A stretch of 64,000 bases of DNA from an uncultured Bacteroidota bacterium (GTDB lineage: Bacteria > Bacteroidota > Bacteroidia > B-17B0 > Aurantibacillaceae). Both the position numbers and the translations under genes were made by a program. Position 1 is the stretch's first letter; every line of letters starts with the position of its first letter. Where the stretch lies: the NCBI GenBank assembly GCA_937873155.1, contig CALMVZ010000003.1, positions 62,001-126,000 on the forward strand, in the 5' to 3' direction. This document shows positions 4,466 through 51,970 of the stretch, in pieces. The notes below the pieces were generated by a model that searched no databases, was not told the DNA's origin, and was given only the letters and a program-made list of their open reading frames with translations.

Positions 4466-5125
4466 CTACTCATTTACCCATTTTGAATGGGTCACTATTG
4501 TATCCGAGTAGAACTTCACAGCGCCGGTTGTAATATCATGTATGCCTCCTAAGGTTCCGATGGTTCCGCTTTCTATCATTTCTTTTAGTATCGGACTGCG
4601 TTTCGTTATTTCATGCAATGTTTTTTTAATATTCAGTTCTGTCACCTTTTCTACAAATTCAATATTTTTTGAAGTTCGGTCTTTTGTTACAGTTTTTTCG
4701 TCCTCAACGGCAGGTCTTATTTTATCAAGCAAAGTAGTGAGGTTGCCCATTTCCAAATGATCGCAAGCGCCCTTTATAGCACCGCATTTTGTATGACCAA
4801 GTACTACAATAACTTTTGCGCCGGAAACTTTACATGCAAATTCCATGCTGCCTAAAATATCTTCATTGATAATATTCCCTGCTATACGGACGCTGAATAT
4901 ATCTCCAAGCCCTTGATCGAAGATCAGTTCAGCGGAAGTTCTCGAGTCAATGCAGCTAAGCACTATAGCAAAAGGATATTGACTGTCTGAAGTCTCATTA
5001 ACTTGCTGAAGCAAATTGCGGTTTGCTTTAAGATTATTTTGAAACCTTTGATTCCCTTTTTTCAATATTTCTATTGCCATTAGAGGAGTTATTGCTTGCT
5101 GCATTTCTTTTGTTAGTGTTTTCAT
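4466..5125 (-). CDS. Beta-class carbonic anhydrase (copy 1)
   Basis: 219 residues. It interconverts CO2 and bicarbonate. The beta-class zinc site is complete: Cys58-x-Asp60-x-Arg62 in SCIDSRTS, and His111-x2-Cys114 in GHTKCGAIKG. The last gene of a leftward operon USP-like, SulP, bestrophin, carbonic anhydrase; it starts 12 bases after the bestrophin stop. A close paralog lies at 49629-50273, nearly identical from MKTLTKEMQ through the active site and diverging mainly after residue 140. No signal peptide, so cytoplasmic. The genetic link to two anion permeation proteins suggests it handles bicarbonate moved by them (inference). Confidence 0.95.
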   Translation of the reverse strand: MKTLTKEMQQAITPLMAIEILKKGNQRFQNNLKANRNLLQQVNETSDSQYPFAIVLSCIDSRTSAELIFDQGLGDIFSVRIAGNIINEDILGSMEFACKVSGAKVIVVLGHTKCGAIKGACDHLEMGNLTTLLDKIRPAVEDEKTVTKDRTSKNIEFVEKVTELNIKKTLHEITKRSPILKEMIESGTIGTLGGIHDITTGAVKFYSDTIVTHSKWVNE

Positions 5126-5137
5126 AGCGTATATAGT

Positions 5138-6031
5138 TTATAGCAAATAAAAATTAACCGGTTCAATCGGAGAGGGGATATCTTTTTCTTTAAGTATTTG
5201 TTTTATGTTTATTTCAATCGTTCTTGCAATGGCTGTTACTGCTGTATCCGTTGGCCTGTTCTCAAACGGATCCTGCATGTGTGTCGCCGATTTTTCGAGT
5301 AAGAAGAATAAAGAGGAAATGCTAATGAGCAAAGGCAGTTCGAACATCGCATTAATATTGTCAAGGGAAACAGACAGGGTGCATACAAACAAATAGATCA
5401 GCACATGCAGATATTTTTTGTATGTCGCAGGGAAGACAGTTGTTTTGATCCGTTCGCATTTCCCCTGCGATTCGCATAAACGTGTCAAGGTCTCGTCAAG
5501 CTGAATGCGTTCAAACTTATCCAGCTCTCCTTTTTGAAGAAGTTCTTTGATGGTTGTGGCTTGCATATTTAAGATAGCCAAAGGTTTATTGGCATGATAA
5601 TTCAATTCTGAAATTTCTTCGTGGCTTAAATATTTATCCATGTCTTTTAAAGGATCAAGGCTGCGTAGCGATCGGCCAAGGGCATAGCACCAGGCTATCT
5701 GCGTATAGGCGATCTTTTTTATCAATGTATCACGTTCATTCATCACGAATGAACGAGTTTGTATAACTAAAGTGCGGGAATCGTTAACAATGCTCCCCCA
5801 GATCTGACGCGCTTCCCACCACCGGTCGTAAGATTGATTGAGTTTGAATGATAATAGAACAGAGATCGCTGTTCCCATAAAGGCAGGTATGGCCAGCGGC
5901 ATTTCAGGAAGCAATGAATTGTATTTGTTTTTTATAAAATGAACAATTAACGATACGCAAATTATAATGACCAGATCAATTTTTATCTTGTTAAGGATAT
6001 AACTTATCGGAATATGTTTATTCAGGAACAT
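5138..6031 (-). CDS. Bestrophin-family channel (copy 1)
   Basis: 297 residues, the bacterial bestrophin (UPF0187/YneE-like) family. Two hydrophobic segments (about 18-32 and 45-65) precede the diagnostic SFKLNQSYDRWWEARQIWG, and another pair lies near 208-245. The C-terminal signature DPFENRPTDTAVTAIA matches the family DPF...P.D region. Bestrophins are pentameric anion or cation channels; algal members conduct bicarbonate. The start lies 1 base after the SulP stop and the end is 12 bases before the carbonic anhydrase, so all three are co-transcribed. Its ion selectivity cannot be read from the sequence. Confidence 0.93.
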   Translation of the reverse strand: MFLNKHIPISYILNKIKIDLVIIICVSLIVHFIKNKYNSLLPEMPLAIPAFMGTAISVLLSFKLNQSYDRWWEARQIWGSIVNDSRTLVIQTRSFVMNERDTLIKKIAYTQIAWCYALGRSLRSLDPLKDMDKYLSHEEISELNYHANKPLAILNMQATTIKELLQKGELDKFERIQLDETLTRLCESQGKCERIKTTVFPATYKKYLHVLIYLFVCTLSVSLDNINAMFELPLLISISSLFFLLEKSATHMQDPFENRPTDTAVTAIARTIEINIKQILKEKDIPSPIEPVNFYLL

Positions 6032-6032
6032 T

Positions 6033-7454
6033 TCAGCCGAATACTTCTTCTTCCTCTTCTTCTTTAACTGTATTTGTTTCCGATCTGTTTCTCAGGAAGA
6101 GTTTTTTTATAACGAAATATATGATCAGGGCAGACAAAACTCCGGTCAGGAAATTTGTTACAGGCACCATAATAGCAGTGTATATCATCACCATAAATTC
6201 AAATTTGCCGTGTTGTTTCACTTCTTTGATCTCGCTTACTTTTATCATATTGCTGGCTACCCAAACTAATATGCCGCCAATACTTGCCATTGGGATCAAT
6301 TCCAAATATTGCGCGAGATAAAAAGCCATAGAAAGTTTCAGGATCGCTTTAAAATACCCGGCCAGCGGTGTTTGGGCCCCCGCTTTTATGCTTGTTGCAG
6401 TTCGAGCAAGGGCACCGGTGCAAGGGAATCCCTGGATTAAAGGCGTTATTATTTGTACCATACCCTGTCCAAAGAATTCTTTGTCGGGATTAAATGGCGT
6501 TCTGTTATTTTTTGCTAATCTGTCAGCCATAGAAGAACATAAGATGCTTTCTACACCCGACACAAAAACTATCGCGCAAACAAAATATAGAATATCTAAC
6601 AATACATTAAAATTAAATCCGGGCATAGAGGGCGCTGTGAAAACAAAAAAATTGTTAGGTATACTGCCGTAAAGATCTTTAACAAGAATAATATTTTTAT
6701 CGCCGAGGAGCGTAGCAGACAATATAGTAGTAGCAGCCATTGCAATTACCGGACCTGGAATAAAAACAGATATTCGCAATAATATTTTGGCCAATGCAAA
6801 TGTTAATACACCCAAAAGTACCGACCACAGATTTATTTTATCGAGATTATGTATCGCTGCATTTATATTGTGCATCAGTCCGCCTTGTATATCTTCATCC
6901 TGGCCTAAGAAATCCTTGAACGATTCTATTCCAAGTATATCTTCAAGATTTGTAAGTGCTATTGCAACAGCTATACCAACGGTGAAGCCGACAATGATAG
7001 AATTAGGGACTAACTTAGCATATTTACCAAAACCAAAAATTCCCATCGCAATAAGAATAAGCCCGGATATGATCGAAACTAAAATCAGAAAGCCATGAGC
7101 TGTTTCAAGTGTTCCGCCACTTGCCGGACCGTATTTCGTAATCAACGCGGCGATCACAGGAATGAATGCAGCAGTTGGTCCGTACACCTGGTATTTTGAA
7201 CCGCCAAATGTTCTCCCGATTACGCAAGCGATCGCGCCGGCTACAATACCATGTTCAGGTCGCATGCCCATCGCCATAGCGAAACCCATTGCCATTGGAA
7301 TGGCGGTCATTGCAACAATCAGACCGGCACTCAGATCTTTATATACGGTCTTGACCCAGTTATCTTTTGTAAGATCTTCCCACCTTGGATCGTTAAATGT
7401 GAAGAAGAGTTTAAGACGTCCCAAAGGAGTTGTAGGAAAATGATTTTTTTTCAT
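6033..7454 (-). CDS. SulP-family inorganic anion transporter without STAS domain
   Basis: 473 residues with 10-12 hydrophobic segments. The SulP core is clear: DLSAGLIVAMTAIPMAMGFA in the first helix, the YQVYGPTAAFIPV segment, and later GFPCTGALARTATSIKAGA. SulP proteins move sulfate, bicarbonate or other anions; cyanobacterial BicA is a bicarbonate importer of this family. Most members end in a STAS domain; this one stops after the last helix with a short acidic tail rich in Glu. It is followed within 1 base by a bestrophin and then a carbonic anhydrase, which favours bicarbonate as substrate (inference). Confidence 0.92.
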   Translation of the reverse strand: MKKNHFPTTPLGRLKLFFTFNDPRWEDLTKDNWVKTVYKDLSAGLIVAMTAIPMAMGFAMAMGMRPEHGIVAGAIACVIGRTFGGSKYQVYGPTAAFIPVIAALITKYGPASGGTLETAHGFLILVSIISGLILIAMGIFGFGKYAKLVPNSIIVGFTVGIAVAIALTNLEDILGIESFKDFLGQDEDIQGGLMHNINAAIHNLDKINLWSVLLGVLTFALAKILLRISVFIPGPVIAMAATTILSATLLGDKNIILVKDLYGSIPNNFFVFTAPSMPGFNFNVLLDILYFVCAIVFVSGVESILCSSMADRLAKNNRTPFNPDKEFFGQGMVQIITPLIQGFPCTGALARTATSIKAGAQTPLAGYFKAILKLSMAFYLAQYLELIPMASIGGILVWVASNMIKVSEIKEVKQHGKFEFMVMIYTAIMVPVTNFLTGVLSALIIYFVIKKLFLRNRSETNTVKEEEEEEVFG

Positions 7455-7472
7455 GGATCTGCGATTAATTAA

Positions 7473-7946
7473 TTAATTAAACAGGGCGATAAGATGTTCT
7501 TGTTCTGATTTGTTCAGATATTGTTCCCATTCTTTTTCGAAAACGGGAATGTAAGTCTTTCGTAACATAGCTTCCGGATTAAAGCCCCGGTTTGTTATTT
7601 TGAGTTTGTATGTTTTAGGCAGATGTATCTCATTTATTTTGTTAGCAGAAAGAAAGTTTTTCGCATACGCCTTATTATTTCCGTGAAGATGTTTGATGTC
7701 TACTTCTTTCAGGGTTGTATACCTGTTCTTCAAAACTTCGAGAGCTTCTTTAAATTCATTGGTCATATGTTTAGCTATGATCCTTTCAGATGAATAAAAG
7801 AGAAGGTCAAGCTCTGAATCGTTTAAATACTCTGCGAACACGAGAGTTGCGTGTATTTCCTCTGTCTTATTTTCCTCCAGCACCAGTCTTAGTGTATTAA
7901 GGGAGGCAACACAAAAATCAATGGGGATAAGTATATTTTTAGCCAT
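7473..7946 (-). CDS. Universal-stress-protein-like protein
   Basis: 157 residues. The N-terminus (NILIPIDFCVASLNTLRLVLEE) has the Usp pattern: a beta strand, Asp, then an amphipathic helix. The rest lacks the ATP-binding GxxG...S motif that many Usp proteins show near the C-terminus, so it may be a non-ATP-binding member or a distant relative. It begins the leftward run that continues after 18 bases into SulP, bestrophin and carbonic anhydrase, so it is probably an accessory or regulatory partner of that operon. Confidence 0.6.
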   Translation of the reverse strand: MAKNILIPIDFCVASLNTLRLVLEENKTEEIHATLVFAEYLNDSELDLLFYSSERIIAKHMTNEFKEALEVLKNRYTTLKEVDIKHLHGNNKAYAKNFLSANKINEIHLPKTYKLKITNRGFNPEAMLRKTYIPVFEKEWEQYLNKSEQEHLIALFN

Positions 7947-8026
7947 TCTTCCTGCTTTTCTGCAAGTTTAGAATGACTTTATTAAGATGATATAAGAGAG
8001 AGATTAAAATCAGATTAGAAAATCGG

Positions 8027-9397
8027 TTAATCTGTATAGAATGGCAATTTTACAAGTACGGCTGTACCATTGTTTACCTCCGATCTGACAATAAGTTCGC
8101 CATTATGAAGATTTATAATGTTCCTGGTCAGCGGTAGCCCAATTCCATATCCTTCGAATAAACGCGCGTTTGAAGCTCTGAAGAACGGATCATATATATA
8201 AGGCATATCGGATTCAGGAATTCCAATACCTCTGTCCTTAATGGTAACTACAACCTGATTTTGGGTGGAGGCAATGTAAACTGTTACGGGAGCATTATTA
8301 GAATACTTACAGGCGTTACCTAGTAAGTTACAAAATGCGAGATGCAGCAATTGCCTGTTTCCTTTTGTTTTCAGTTTATAAGGATCATCCGGGATCAGGC
8401 TAAGATCGATCAAGATCTGGTTCTTCGGATTAAGTTTATCAATTAACTCCTTTGCTTCATATATCACTTCGTCGATCCGGATCTTTTCGAAAAGTATAGC
8501 TTTCCCTTTATAAGCTGTTTGGGCAAGGAATAGTAAAGATTTTGTGATCTCATCAAGCCGTTCGGCCTGGGTTAATATATTCTGTAATGTTCTTTGGTAT
8601 TCTTCCTGCGATCTTTGTTTTAATAATGCTACATCCGCTTCACCAATGATAGAAGTTAAAGGCGTTCTTAATTCGTGGGAGCCATTACTGATGAAATTGT
8701 TTTGTGTTTCGAATGCAGTTTCGATCCGGTTCAGCAGGTCATTGAATGTACTTACCAATTCTTTGATCTCGTTACTGGTGTTAGAATCTTCTAACCTGAG
8801 ATGAATATTCTCGGTGCTGATCTGTTTTACCTTGTCGGTTATGCGTTTGATAGGCAGGAATACTTGTCGTGAAAAGTAGAATGACAAGGATACAACGATA
8901 ATGATCACCAGTAGCATTCCGCCAATCAGAAGATTCCTTAAAAAAATAAGATGGTGAGTACCGTAATAGTTTTCAGCAGAAACAATTACAAGATATTCGC
9001 GTCCATTCTTTTTGTGAATGGCTCCGGCATAAAAAATGTTCCCCTTCTTTGATGTGGAATTTCCTTTCTCCGCAATATCGCTTACAAAAACATCAGGAAA
9101 CCTAAGTTGTTTCGCGATCGAATCGGCTGAAGAAATACCTTTGAATTCTATAACGTATTCTTTTTCCTGTTCCAGTCTTTCAAGATGTTTGTTACGCAAA
9201 GCTTTCAGGTTCTCCGCATCCAGTGTTCCCGGTTCAAGATTGTATTGCGCGGAGATCCTTACCCTCGCTTCAAGCCGTTTGTAAAAATCAACATACGAGT
9301 ATTTATTCTGGAAAAAATAAACAGTAAGGCCGAACACGATAACGATCGTCACACAGATCACTCCTATAATAAGTGTCAGTTTTGTCCGCGTTCTCAT
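8027..9397 (-). CDS. Sensor histidine kinase with HAMP domain
   Basis: 456 residues. First membrane helix about 8-29, a periplasmic sensor region of about 120 residues, second helix about 156-176, HAMP about 177-230, HisKA with the H-box SHELRTPLTS (His241), then HATPase_c with N-box (LLGNACKYSNN) and G-boxes (DRGIGIPE and GYGIGLPL). Its ATG overlaps the stop region of the upstream response regulator by 4 bases, so the pair is co-translated. The carbon/anion operon starts 80 bases downstream on the same strand and may be a target or part of the same transcript (inference). Confidence 0.95.
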   Translation of the reverse strand: MRTRTKLTLIIGVICVTIVIVFGLTVYFFQNKYSYVDFYKRLEARVRISAQYNLEPGTLDAENLKALRNKHLERLEQEKEYVIEFKGISSADSIAKQLRFPDVFVSDIAEKGNSTSKKGNIFYAGAIHKKNGREYLVIVSAENYYGTHHLIFLRNLLIGGMLLVIIIVVSLSFYFSRQVFLPIKRITDKVKQISTENIHLRLEDSNTSNEIKELVSTFNDLLNRIETAFETQNNFISNGSHELRTPLTSIIGEADVALLKQRSQEEYQRTLQNILTQAERLDEITKSLLFLAQTAYKGKAILFEKIRIDEVIYEAKELIDKLNPKNQILIDLSLIPDDPYKLKTKGNRQLLHLAFCNLLGNACKYSNNAPVTVYIASTQNQVVVTIKDRGIGIPESDMPYIYDPFFRASNARLFEGYGIGLPLTRNIINLHNGELIVRSEVNNGTAVLVKLPFYTD

Positions 9398-10089
9398 TTT
9401 TCTTTCAATACATAACCCATGCCCACCACTGTTTGAATAAGCTTAGTGTCAGCATTGGAGTCGATCTTTTTTCTCAGATAATTAATATAAACATCTACCA
9501 CATTCGTACCAACATTGAAATCTATATCCCAAACAAGTTCAAGTAATTCAAGCCGTGAAAAAACTTTTCCTTTGTTTTTGAGCAGGATCAGAAGCAAACG
9601 GTATTCGGTTGCAGTTAACGAGATAAGAGTTTCCTTGCGTTTCACTTCTTTTGTTGTATCGTTCACGATCAGATCCGCAATAGAGTAAATATCGTTCACA
9701 ACAACTTCATTGGCCGTCTCATTTTGTGATGCACGTCTCAAAAGGGCATTTATCCTGGCTTTTAATTCAATGAATTTGAATGGTTTTATAAGGTAATCAT
9801 CCGCCCCTATATTCAGCCCCGATGCAATATTCTCAGATGTGCCTAATGCCGACAGAAACAAGATAGGTGCTTTAATATTCTTTTGCCTTAACTCTTTACA
9901 AATGTCCAGGCCATTCTTATCCGGCAAAAGTATATCTAAAATGAAAAGATCGAATACGGAATCCATAGCCATATTAATCGCAGAATTGCCGTTAAGTGCA
10001 ACGGAAACCTCAAAATCCTCCTCTGTCAAACCTTTTTTTATAAATTCAACAACGCTGGTTTCGTCTTCTATCAAAAGTATTTTTTTCAT
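9394..10089 (-). CDS. OmpR/PhoB-family response regulator
   Basis: 231 residues. Receiver with acidic pocket (LLIEDE), phosphoacceptor Asp52 in LFILDILLPDKNG, conserved Thr/Ser (FLSALG) and Lys (YLIKPFKF). The C-terminal winged helix is typical: LTATEYRLLLILLKNKGKVFSR and the recognition part VVDVYINYLRKKID. It is the first gene of a pair with the overlapping HAMP histidine kinase. The close downstream SulP/bestrophin/carbonic anhydrase operon is a candidate target, though no binding site was identified. Confidence 0.95.
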   Translation of the reverse strand: MKKILLIEDETSVVEFIKKGLTEEDFEVSVALNGNSAINMAMDSVFDLFILDILLPDKNGLDICKELRQKNIKAPILFLSALGTSENIASGLNIGADDYLIKPFKFIELKARINALLRRASQNETANEVVVNDIYSIADLIVNDTTKEVKRKETLISLTATEYRLLLILLKNKGKVFSRLELLELVWDIDFNVGTNVVDVYINYLRKKIDSNADTKLIQTVVGMGYVLKEK

Positions 10090-49628: not shown

Positions 49629-50273
49629 TCATGAACCAAAGTGCATAGTATCGGGATAAAAAGATACCTGCCCCGTTGTAATGTCATGAGTTCCTCCAAT
49701 AATACCAATTTGTTTATTTTCGATCATTTCTTTTAAAATAGTGCTGCGCTCCATTATTGCTCTAACCGTTCTCTTAACATTAATAGTTGCTACGTTCTCT
49801 ACAAAAACAGAATTTTTAGAATTCCGGTTTTCTTTTGTTTCAGTTTCATTTTCAACTGCCGGCCTGATCTTTGTTAACAGTGCTGTTAAATTACCCATTT
49901 CTACGTGATCGCAAGCGCCTTTTATTGCACCGCATTTGGTGTGCCCTAATACAACAATGATTTTTGAACCTGCCACTTTACAGGCAAATTCCATGCTTCC
50001 GAGGATATCCTCATTTATTATATTACCCGCTATACGTACACTAAAAATATCACCGAGCCCCTGGTCAAAAATTAATTCAGCAGAAGTCCTGCTGTCAATG
50101 CAGCTAAGAATTATTGCAAAGGGGTGTTGGCCGTCGGACGTTTCGTTGGCTTGCTGTAAGAGATTGCGGTTTGCTTTAAGATTATTCACAAAGCGTTTAT
50201 TTCCTTCTTTCAACAGATCTAAAGCCATTGAAGGTGTTATGGCGGCCTGCATTTCTTTTGTTAGGGTTTTCAT
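49629..50273 (-). CDS. Beta-class carbonic anhydrase (copy 2)
   Basis: 214 residues, a close paralog of 4466-5125: the first 60 residues and the zinc-site region are almost the same (Cys58, Asp60, Arg62, His111, Cys114 all present). Differences gather after residue 140 and at the C-terminus (TGQVSFYPDTMHFGS). Follows the bestrophin gene by 18 bases, so both are one unit. The divergent neighbour is a TetR regulator, which suggests that this copy is conditionally expressed. Confidence 0.95.
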   Translation of the reverse strand: MKTLTKEMQAAITPSMALDLLKEGNKRFVNNLKANRNLLQQANETSDGQHPFAIILSCIDSRTSAELIFDQGLGDIFSVRIAGNIINEDILGSMEFACKVAGSKIIVVLGHTKCGAIKGACDHVEMGNLTALLTKIRPAVENETETKENRNSKNSVFVENVATINVKRTVRAIMERSTILKEMIENKQIGIIGGTHDITTGQVSFYPDTMHFGS

Positions 50274-50291
50274 TGGTTTTTATTTTATTGT

Positions 50292-51185
50292 TTATAATTG
50301 ATAAAATTTATCTTGTGATTGCGGTTGTGGAATTTCGGTTTCTTTTAAAAGCTGTTTTATATTTATTTCAATTGTTTTTGCAATAGCTGTAACCGACGTA
50401 TCAGTTGGCCTGTTCTCAAATGGATCTTGCATATGGGTAGCAGATTTTTCTAACAAGAGGAATGCAGATGAGATCAATAGCAATAGTGGTATCTCAAAAA
50501 ATCCTGCTACACCTTTTAATGAAATAGATAAAGTAACTACGAATAAGTAAATTATGCCGTGCAGAAACAACCGATATGTAACAGGAAATACAGTACTTTT
50601 TATTCGTTCAGCTTTTCCTTCTGAATCGCAAAGTCGTACAAGTGTATCGTCTAATTGTATCTGCGAAAAAATATCTAATTGATCATTTTCTTTAAGATCA
50701 CGGATATCCTTTCCGTGTAGTTGAAGCAGCGCCAGGGGTTTGTTATTATGCTTTTGCAGTTCTGCAAGTTCTTCAACCGAAATAAATTGATCTAAATTTT
50801 CAACAGGATCTAACCCTCTAAGCGATTGTCCTAAAGAATAACACCATGCAATTTGCCTGAAAGCGATCTTCTTAACTATTGCGTCATTTCCTTTTTTAGT
50901 CAGGGTTTGTAACTGAATAACAAAACTACGCGAGTCATTAACTATAGCTCCCCAGACTTTGCGGGCTTCCCACCACCTATCGTAAGATTGGTTTAACTTA
51001 AAGGAAAGGAGGATCGAAATAGCTGTTCCTAGAAAAGCCGGGATAGTTAATGGCATTTCAGGCAACAGTTCTTTATACCTTTCGGTAATGAAGAGTACTG
51101 TCAGTGACACAATTAAAACGTAAACAAGGTCATATTTTACTTTGTTCAGAATGTATGTAGCCGGTATACGCTTATTTAGCAGCAT
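50292..51185 (-). CDS. Bestrophin-family channel (copy 2)
   Basis: 297 residues, same length as copy 1 and similar along its full length: LNKRIPATYILNKVKYDL, SFKLNQSYDRWWEARKVWGAI, RLCDSEGKAERIKSTVFPVTY and LLEKSATHMQDPFENRPTDTSV. First gene of the unit, with a TATCTTTG promoter box 23-30 bases before the ATG. Unlike copy 1, no SulP transporter is associated. Regulated by, or adjacent to, the TetR gene transcribed away from it. Confidence 0.93.
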   Translation of the reverse strand: MLLNKRIPATYILNKVKYDLVYVLIVSLTVLFITERYKELLPEMPLTIPAFLGTAISILLSFKLNQSYDRWWEARKVWGAIVNDSRSFVIQLQTLTKKGNDAIVKKIAFRQIAWCYSLGQSLRGLDPVENLDQFISVEELAELQKHNNKPLALLQLHGKDIRDLKENDQLDIFSQIQLDDTLVRLCDSEGKAERIKSTVFPVTYRLFLHGIIYLFVVTLSISLKGVAGFFEIPLLLLISSAFLLLEKSATHMQDPFENRPTDTSVTAIAKTIEINIKQLLKETEIPQPQSQDKFYQL

Positions 51186-51207
51186 GGTATTTGTTATAAA
51201 TTCAGGA

Positions 51208-51215
51208 CAAAGATA
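51208..51215 (-). promoter_or_regulatory. -7 box for bestrophin copy 2
   Basis: Minus strand TATCTTTG, identical in sequence to the box of the divergent TetR gene. Leader about 17 bases. Confidence 0.55.
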
Positions 51216-51242
51216 GTAATAATTTGTAAAAAGATAGTAATA
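51210..51242. repeat. Direct repeat AAGATAGTAATA, 21-base spacing
   Basis: AAGATAGTAATA at 51210-51221 and again at 51231-51242. Twenty-one bases is two helical turns, so both copies face the same side of the DNA. The second copy forms part of the palindrome at 51233. It lies upstream of the bestrophin promoter. Confidence 0.85.
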
Positions 51243-51247
51243 CTATC
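51233..51247. promoter_or_regulatory. Palindrome GATAGTAATACTATC in the TetR/bestrophin spacer
   Basis: Perfect inverted repeat of 7-base arms about a single A. A likely operator for the adjacent TetR-type regulator or another dimer. Lies between the two divergent -7 boxes. Confidence 0.6.
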
Positions 51248-51254
51248 ATAAAAA

Positions 51255-51270
51255 ATGGTAAAAATACCAT
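51255..51270. promoter_or_regulatory. Palindrome ATGGTA-AAAA-TACCAT overlapping the TetR promoter
   Basis: Perfect inverted repeat that shares its last base with the TetR -7 box (51270-51277), so binding would block transcription. Its 12-base centre GGTAAAAATACC (51257-51268) recurs exactly at 61126-61137. Confidence 0.6.
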
Positions 51271-51277
51271 ATCTTTG
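51270..51277 (+). promoter_or_regulatory. -7 box for the TetR-family gene
   Basis: TATCTTTG, fitting TAnnTTTG, 15 bases before the ATG; leader about 10 bases. Overlaps the 51255-51270 palindrome. Confidence 0.6.
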
Positions 51278-51292
51278 TGAGGATCAAATAAA

Positions 51293-51970
51293 ATGAAGCA
51301 TCAGCTACAGATAAAGATGAATGAGGCCTTGTATCTCCGTGACCCGGAAAGTACTGTTTTAGGTAAAAACATCCTTAAACACAGCGTGCACCTTATCCAT
51401 AAACAAGGCTTTGAGGCTTTTACTTTTAAGAAATTAGCAGAAGATGTTGGTACTACGGAAGCCGGTATTTACAGGTATTTCGAGAATAAGCATAAACTGT
51501 TGGTGTATCTTACAGCCTGGTATTGGGGCTGGCTCGAATTCCAGATCAGTTTTCAGACAAATAATATAAAGGACCCGGAGGTAAGATTAAGGCGTGTAGT
51601 AGAACTGCTTGCTACTACGGTTAAGGACGATCAGCAAACCAGTTATATAAATGAAAGCCTGCTTCACCAGATCATTATCGCAGAAGGATCAAAAGCATAT
51701 CTGACGAAGCAGGTAGGGGAAGATAATAAGCTGCAATTCTTTAAACCATATAAAGATCTTTGTGCTGTTGTAGGAAATATTATTTCTGAATGTAGCCCAA
51801 AGTACAAATACCCGAAGTCGCTTGCTTCTACAATAATTGAAATGGCACATTTTCAGAATTTCTTCATGTATAATCTGCCCTCACTTACTGATTTTGGTAA
51901 AACTAAAAAGGAAGCCGAGATCATCTCTTTCCTGAATGATCTTGTTTTTTCAAGTTTGAAAAAAAAGTAA
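51293..51970 (+). CDS. TetR/AcrR-family transcriptional regulator
   Basis: 225 residues. N-terminal helix-turn-helix: FEAFTFKKLAEDVGTTEAGIYRYFENKHKLLVYL (about 41-75), the TetR signature. The C-terminal part is a ligand or dimer domain. Divergent from the bestrophin/carbonic anhydrase unit across a 107-base spacer with two palindromes and a direct repeat; self-repression and control of bestrophin are the likely roles (inference). The ligand is unknown. Confidence 0.93.
   Translation: MKHQLQIKMNEALYLRDPESTVLGKNILKHSVHLIHKQGFEAFTFKKLAEDVGTTEAGIYRYFENKHKLLVYLTAWYWGWLEFQISFQTNNIKDPEVRLRRVVELLATTVKDDQQTSYINESLLHQIIIAEGSKAYLTKQVGEDNKLQFFKPYKDLCAVVGNIISECSPKYKYPKSLASTIIEMAHFQNFFMYNLPSLTDFGKTKKEAEIISFLNDLVFSSLKKK

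Follow-up and report, generated by a model that had tools for sequence, protein, structure and literature searches.

A SulP-bestrophin-carbonic anhydrase operon behind a two-component system and a USP-fold protein in an uncultured Bacteroidota bacterium: a possible unit of CO2/bicarbonate and acid-base homeostasis

Introduction

SulP transporters that lack a STAS domain and are tied to a beta-carbonic anhydrase (CA) form described bicarbonate systems (Felce and Saier 2004), can2-sulP of A. ferrooxidans among them, and the SulP-CA link, which a preliminary description of the DNA analyzed here took as established, is indeed proposed as a bicarbonate system in the literature (PMC6458275). In Chlamydomonas, the current model has the bestrophins BST1-3 acting with the carbonic anhydrase CAH3 in a thylakoid, Rubisco-based setting (PMC11638005). 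The bestrophin KpBest is Na+-selective and has the neck residues I-I-F, whereas the eukaryotic bestrophins that are anion channels have I-F-F (PMC8496536). TeaD is a protein with the fold of universal stress proteins (USP) that is encoded with the transporter TeaABC and tunes its activity (PMC2964678).

Here we report a computational analysis of a 64,000-nucleotide stretch (the window) of a contig from an uncultured Bacteroidota bacterium (Aurantibacillaceae), in which a STAS-less SulP is again tied to a beta-CA. Unlike in the described SulP-CA systems, a bestrophin is inserted between the two, and a two-component system, an operator and a USP-fold protein are added. The setting also differs from that of BST1-3 and CAH3, being a bacterial plasma membrane, a genome without Rubisco and a CA of the beta class. 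In the open-access literature, we found no account of bacterial bestrophin-CA operons and no report of a module of response regulator (RR), histidine kinase (HK), operator and USP with a swappable membrane gene.

Results

Layout of the locus

The features discussed below lie at the following positions of the window.

9394..10089, minus strand: OmpR/PhoB-type response regulator, 231 aa (Response_reg and Trans_reg_C)
8027..9397, minus strand: sensor histidine kinase, 456 aa (HAMP/HisKA/HATPase), 4-bp overlap with the RR gene
7977..8020, minus strand: operator of four 11-bp direct repeats, presumed site of the response regulator
7963..7970, minus strand: TAAACTTG, putative -7 promoter element resembling TAnnTTTG, 6 bp past the operator
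7473..7946, minus strand: USP-fold protein, 157 aa (family alignment, weak Usp matches in relatives, structure model, Foldseek)
6033..7454, minus strand: SulP transporter, 473 aa, without STAS domain (Pfam, orthologs)
5138..6031, minus strand: bestrophin (Bestrophin_2), neck T54-V58-F62 (Pfam, neck alignment)
4466..5125, minus strand: beta-CA, no leader extension (Pfam, zinc ligands and dyad)
51293..51970, plus strand: TetR regulator diverging from the second bestrophin-CA pair (TetR_N)
50292..51185, minus strand: second bestrophin, neck T-I-F, 63% identical to the first (family search, neck alignment)
49629..50273, minus strand: second beta-CA, 76% identical to the first (family search)

The four genes of the preliminary description, encoding a USP-like protein, a SulP transporter, a bestrophin and a beta-CA, were confirmed at their positions on the minus strand, where 18, 1 and 12 bp separate them. 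Their identities also held: Pfam supports the last three (Sulfate_transp, E = 5e-65; Bestrophin_2, 5e-55; Pro_CA, 2.6e-39), and the USP-like protein is supported by a structure model and Foldseek. Absent from that description were the upstream RR-HK pair, the operator in the HK-USP gap and the second bestrophin-CA pair; the four-gene set forms the output part of a longer unit headed by RR-HK.

Two-component system, operator and promoter

The HK and RR of the window are closest to heavy-metal and envelope-stress types, and the structure model of the extracytoplasmic sensor domain of HK resembles a PAS/CpxA-like fold only weakly. The HK-USP gap of 80 bp contains the repeats TTCTAATCTGA, TTTTAATCTCT, CTCTTATATCA and TCTTAATAAAG, followed after 6 bp by TAAACTTG, which is near TAnnTTTG, the Bacteroidota -7 promoter consensus. 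An 11-bp period is typical of PhoB/OmpR-type sites, and direct repeats of this period near a promoter, as in OmpR/PhoB regulons, are present here; the RR is the presumed protein that binds them. Given the operator and the -7 element in the HK-USP gap, the USP, SulP, bestrophin and CA genes are therefore probably expressed as a single transcript from a promoter in this gap. A scan for consensus promoters and terminators gave matches no more frequent than chance.

Using a USP-alignment search and related searches, we collected 38 distinct loci with the USP family of the window, the window included. When scored as four tandem TTYTAAT copies with an 11-bp period, the operator reached at least 22 upstream of the USP gene in 36 of the 38 loci vs 0 of 240 control regions in front of other genes. 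Throughout the 2.2 Mb of fetched DNA, all sites scoring at least 24 precede a USP gene of the window family, and none was found away from such genes. The operator is retained in loci without a neighboring kinase (L163, L165) and in L150, where the kinase lies kilobases away, and its spacing to the promoter is alike in most loci across the SulP, bestrophin and DUF1275 types described below.

USP module and its exchangeable membrane gene

The USP-like protein of the window gave no Pfam match above cut-off, Usp included, and the Usp profile gave weak matches in 8 of 17 family members (best 0.0017). Its AlphaFold2 model (pLDDT 88) matches the solved universal stress proteins PH0823, TeaD and UspA, and the best Foldseek matches are USPs (E = 1.6e-6), which places it in the USP fold. 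Classic USPs carry an ATP-binding motif, whereas none is visible in the window protein, and inspection of the family alignment revealed no G-2x-G-9x-G(S/T). As with TeaD, the protein is encoded beside a transporter, although TeaABC is a TRAP ectoine transporter.

The RR-HK-operator-USP module recurs in 37 other Bacteroidota loci, and 35 of the 38 USP loci have a response regulator close by in the same orientation. The gene beside USP encodes a bestrophin in 19 loci, a SulP in nine and the membrane protein DUF1275 in eight (L152, L153, L156, L162-L166, behind RR-HK-USP-operator); nothing was recognized in one, and the window alone has SulP plus bestrophin. Most of these loci lack CA in the operon. 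The kinase tree (34 rows) requires at least six changes of slot type and places the window kinase inside the SulP clade; the distant SulP of L167 is a separate entry, and the kinase of this locus is a long branch of unsure placement. Two loci (L168, L169) with the order RR-USP-bestrophin yielded no regular kinase and have a longer USP frame of about 240-260 aa.

SulP transporter

The window transporter is a SulP family member (PF00916, Sulfate_transp, 220 bits vs the cut-off of 23.2), and its best solved relative is the BicA structure 6ki1 (E = 1.5e-25). It differs from BicA, a Na+/HCO3- symporter, in having no STAS domain and in its changed Na+-site residues: positions D258, T262 and T302 of the BicA Na+ site are E, C and L in the window protein, so that the site is not kept. 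The score is 131 bits vs the cut-off of 880 for the BicA equivalog NF050096, and a BicA ortholog is rejected. In gene context, the protein resembles the putative bicarbonate transporters of the SulP-CA group, which have an adjacent or fused CA and no STAS: the CA lies two genes on in the operon, and orthologs in L142 and L147-L149 are paired with CA directly.

Orthologs with 73-85% identity were found in 12 other genomes. Seven sit behind RR-HK-USP, a USP-SulP locus in G291 has RR-HK about 5 kb upstream, and the three in L147-L149 are paired with a CA of another subfamily. Elsewhere, the window genome encodes a SulP-CA fusion (L134, 5883-8057), which resembles the described SulP-CA systems, and a CA-SulP-CA cluster (L135, 6171-9093). 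In locus L186 (2969-8763), one cluster combines SulP, a protein with a USP domain, CA, DUF2490 and a further SulP that has a STAS domain; DUF2490 was seen again beside SulP-CA in L184.

Bestrophin

The bestrophin of the window matches Bestrophin_2 (PF25539) with 187 bits vs the cut-off of 27; we used this profile because the classic Bestrophin profile (PF01062) matched nothing, controls included. The neck is T-V-F in the window protein, T-I-F in 33 of 34 CA-linked relatives and T-L-F in all 19 USP-linked ones; the window protein thus does not have the I-F-F neck of anion-selective bestrophins. KpBest belongs to the same channel family and can be aligned at the neck, but it is distant (phmmer E about 1e-31), its neck is I-I-F, and a CA link was not found in the reports on KpBest. 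Judged from the alignment, the aliphatic middle residue brings the T-V-F neck closer to KpBest than to the anion-selective bestrophins. Members of another bestrophin group (L203, L206) adjoin TMEM175 potassium-channel genes.

Carbonic anhydrase and its pairing with bestrophin or SulP

The CA of the operon is an intact beta-CA, with the zinc ligands C58, H111 and C114 and the D60-R62 dyad all present. In the genome contigs searched, 36 near bestrophin relatives scored at least 370 bits, and CA lies beside the bestrophin in 30 of them, within about 35 bp in 29; one of the six CA-less cases is cut off by a contig end. A divergent TetR gene flanks the bestrophin-CA pair in 30 of 41 relative loci, and window positions 49629-51970 (TetR-bestrophin-CA) represent this conserved Bacteroidota form. 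Orthologs of the window CA are paired with SulP instead in seven loci (L180, L181, L183-L185, L187, L142), and a distant Bacteroidota genome has an independent SulP-CA-bestrophin operon (L174, 3557-6773), whose CA may be periplasmic since it has a lipoprotein signal in Pfam. Further arrangements are CA-bestrophin-TMEM175 (L206) and a bestrophin paired with a different CA (L131). In a same-genus genome (L141, 8096-8599), SulP is followed by a degenerate CA homolog whose reading frame is still open but which no longer has the segment with the His/Cys zinc ligands.

The bestrophin-CA pairs, the SulP-CA pairs and the operon in L174 show that the linkage is non-random. Chance adjacency is ruled out by the 30 of 36 relatives and the recurrent arrangements, and the random ortholog neighborhoods that the preliminary description named as a possible refutation were not seen. 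The gene order SulP-bestrophin-CA, which it proposed to look for across genomes, was seen exactly in the window genome only; conservation extends to three smaller units, RR-HK-USP-transporter, bestrophin-CA and SulP-CA. The resolution of the CA tree is too low to separate insertion of a bestrophin between SulP and CA from acquisition of a bestrophin-CA pair.

Discussion

Possible function of the operon

The preliminary description had suggested a heterotrophic bicarbonate supply or a CO2/pH homeostasis device. Its statement that Rubisco is missing nearby extends to the whole genome, where a large-chain search to which control genomes responded found none, and Rubisco-linked CO2 concentration is rejected; a rhodopsin search gave no match and carries no weight, as its controls were silent too. 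The suggestion is supported in part, by the non-random linkage and the lack of Rubisco, whereas its supply part is weakened because a passive bestrophin would leak bicarbonate, the neck is KpBest-like and the BicA Na+ site is not kept. We put about even confidence in the operon being a signal-responsive unit of CO2/bicarbonate and acid-base homeostasis under control of the two-component system.

Under the proposed mechanism, the kinase would detect an envelope signal and phosphorylate the response regulator, which would bind the four 11-bp repeats before the USP gene and activate the USP-SulP-bestrophin-CA transcript. SulP would act as a secondary transporter or exchanger of bicarbonate and the bestrophin as a gated passive route for the same small anion. 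Since orthologs of the CA pair with either protein, their common denominator would be CO2/HCO3-; the swap of SulP and bestrophin beside both the CA and the USP module points to one shared substrate, and from the CA we infer that it is bicarbonate. The cytoplasmic CA would hold the CO2/bicarbonate equilibrium, so that net bicarbonate movement would set cytoplasmic pH and CO2 level: efflux through the bestrophin would lower the pH and vent carbon, and SulP import would do the reverse. Heterotrophic carboxylases would also tap this pool. The USP-fold protein, by analogy with TeaD and TeaABC, probably tunes transporter activity and may be a post-translational brake.

The reuse of the module, the operator in 36 of 38 loci vs 0 of 240 controls, the CA pairings, the independent operon in L174, the SulP-CA fusion and CA-SulP-CA cluster elsewhere in the genome, the intact CA and the lack of Rubisco favor the homeostasis unit. 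Against it stand the T-V-F neck, the changed Na+ site of SulP, the CA-less majority of USP loci with a two-component system and DUF1275 as a third slot occupant without known function; moreover, active import of an anion that can also pass through an open passive channel would make a futile cycle unless gated.

Pure bicarbonate supply, which we consider rather unlikely, ranks behind acid-base/CO2 balance. SulP would import bicarbonate at low CO2, and CA and bestrophin would distribute it to anaplerotic and fatty-acid carboxylases, in keeping with the view of SulP-CA pairs as bicarbonate importers (PMC6458275), with a Bacteroidota genome in which a CA and putative bicarbonate transporter are tied to anaplerosis (PMC4148732) and with a bicarbonate requirement of non-autotrophs (PMC6689103). 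However, the genome already has further SulP-CA sets, and the Na+ site of BicA is not kept in this SulP. On physical grounds, bicarbonate would leave through a passive channel at inside-negative potential and could not accumulate, so a bestrophin co-transcribed with SulP would release what SulP imports. The neck, the changed Na+ site and this constraint together favor acid-base/CO2 balance.

It is less probable still that the membrane proteins correct an ion imbalance of another small anion (chloride, nitrite, formate, organic acids) or under osmotic or envelope stress, the CA being a pH helper added in few lineages. The CA-less majority of loci, the envelope-stress affinities of HK and RR with the weakly CpxA-like sensor, the USP-fold partner and the bestrophins that adjoin TMEM175 genes elsewhere all fit such a role, but CA recurs in independent pairings with SulP as well as with bestrophin. 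Very improbable is a Na+ channel like KpBest that returns sodium for a Na+-dependent SulP with no bicarbonate path, as the V/I/L middle neck residue of CA- and USP-linked bestrophins might suggest (cf. I-I-F, PMC8496536), since the first neck residue is T rather than I, KpBest is a single distant protein, the SulP does not retain the sodium site of BicA, and it would be left unexplained why bestrophin takes the place of SulP in one and the same slot.

A candidate regulon with interchangeable carriers

That the switch is kept while the transporter is swapped suggests one common CO2/bicarbonate or pH job for SulP, bestrophin and DUF1275. Tentatively, and with less confidence than in the homeostasis unit itself, we propose that one two-component system, operator and USP-fold protein govern interchangeable, non-homologous carriers of the same anion, often coupled to CA, as a previously undescribed regulon of Bacteroidota. 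CO2/bicarbonate handling by heterotrophs is poorly known outside a few cases, and what bestrophins do in bacteria is, to our knowledge, not settled. If the proposal is true, bacterial bestrophins would include a CA-coupled bicarbonate/pH channel, and DUF1275 would gain its first proposed function; the repeated independent bestrophin-CA pairing and the exchange of three membrane families (bestrophin, SulP and DUF1275) downstream of a single operator make both questions testable. We know of no function for DUF1275, for which the open-access literature held passing mentions only. In three DUF1275 loci, a lipocalin-like gene intervenes, recognized by weak Lipocalin_4 matches in two and by similarity in the third.
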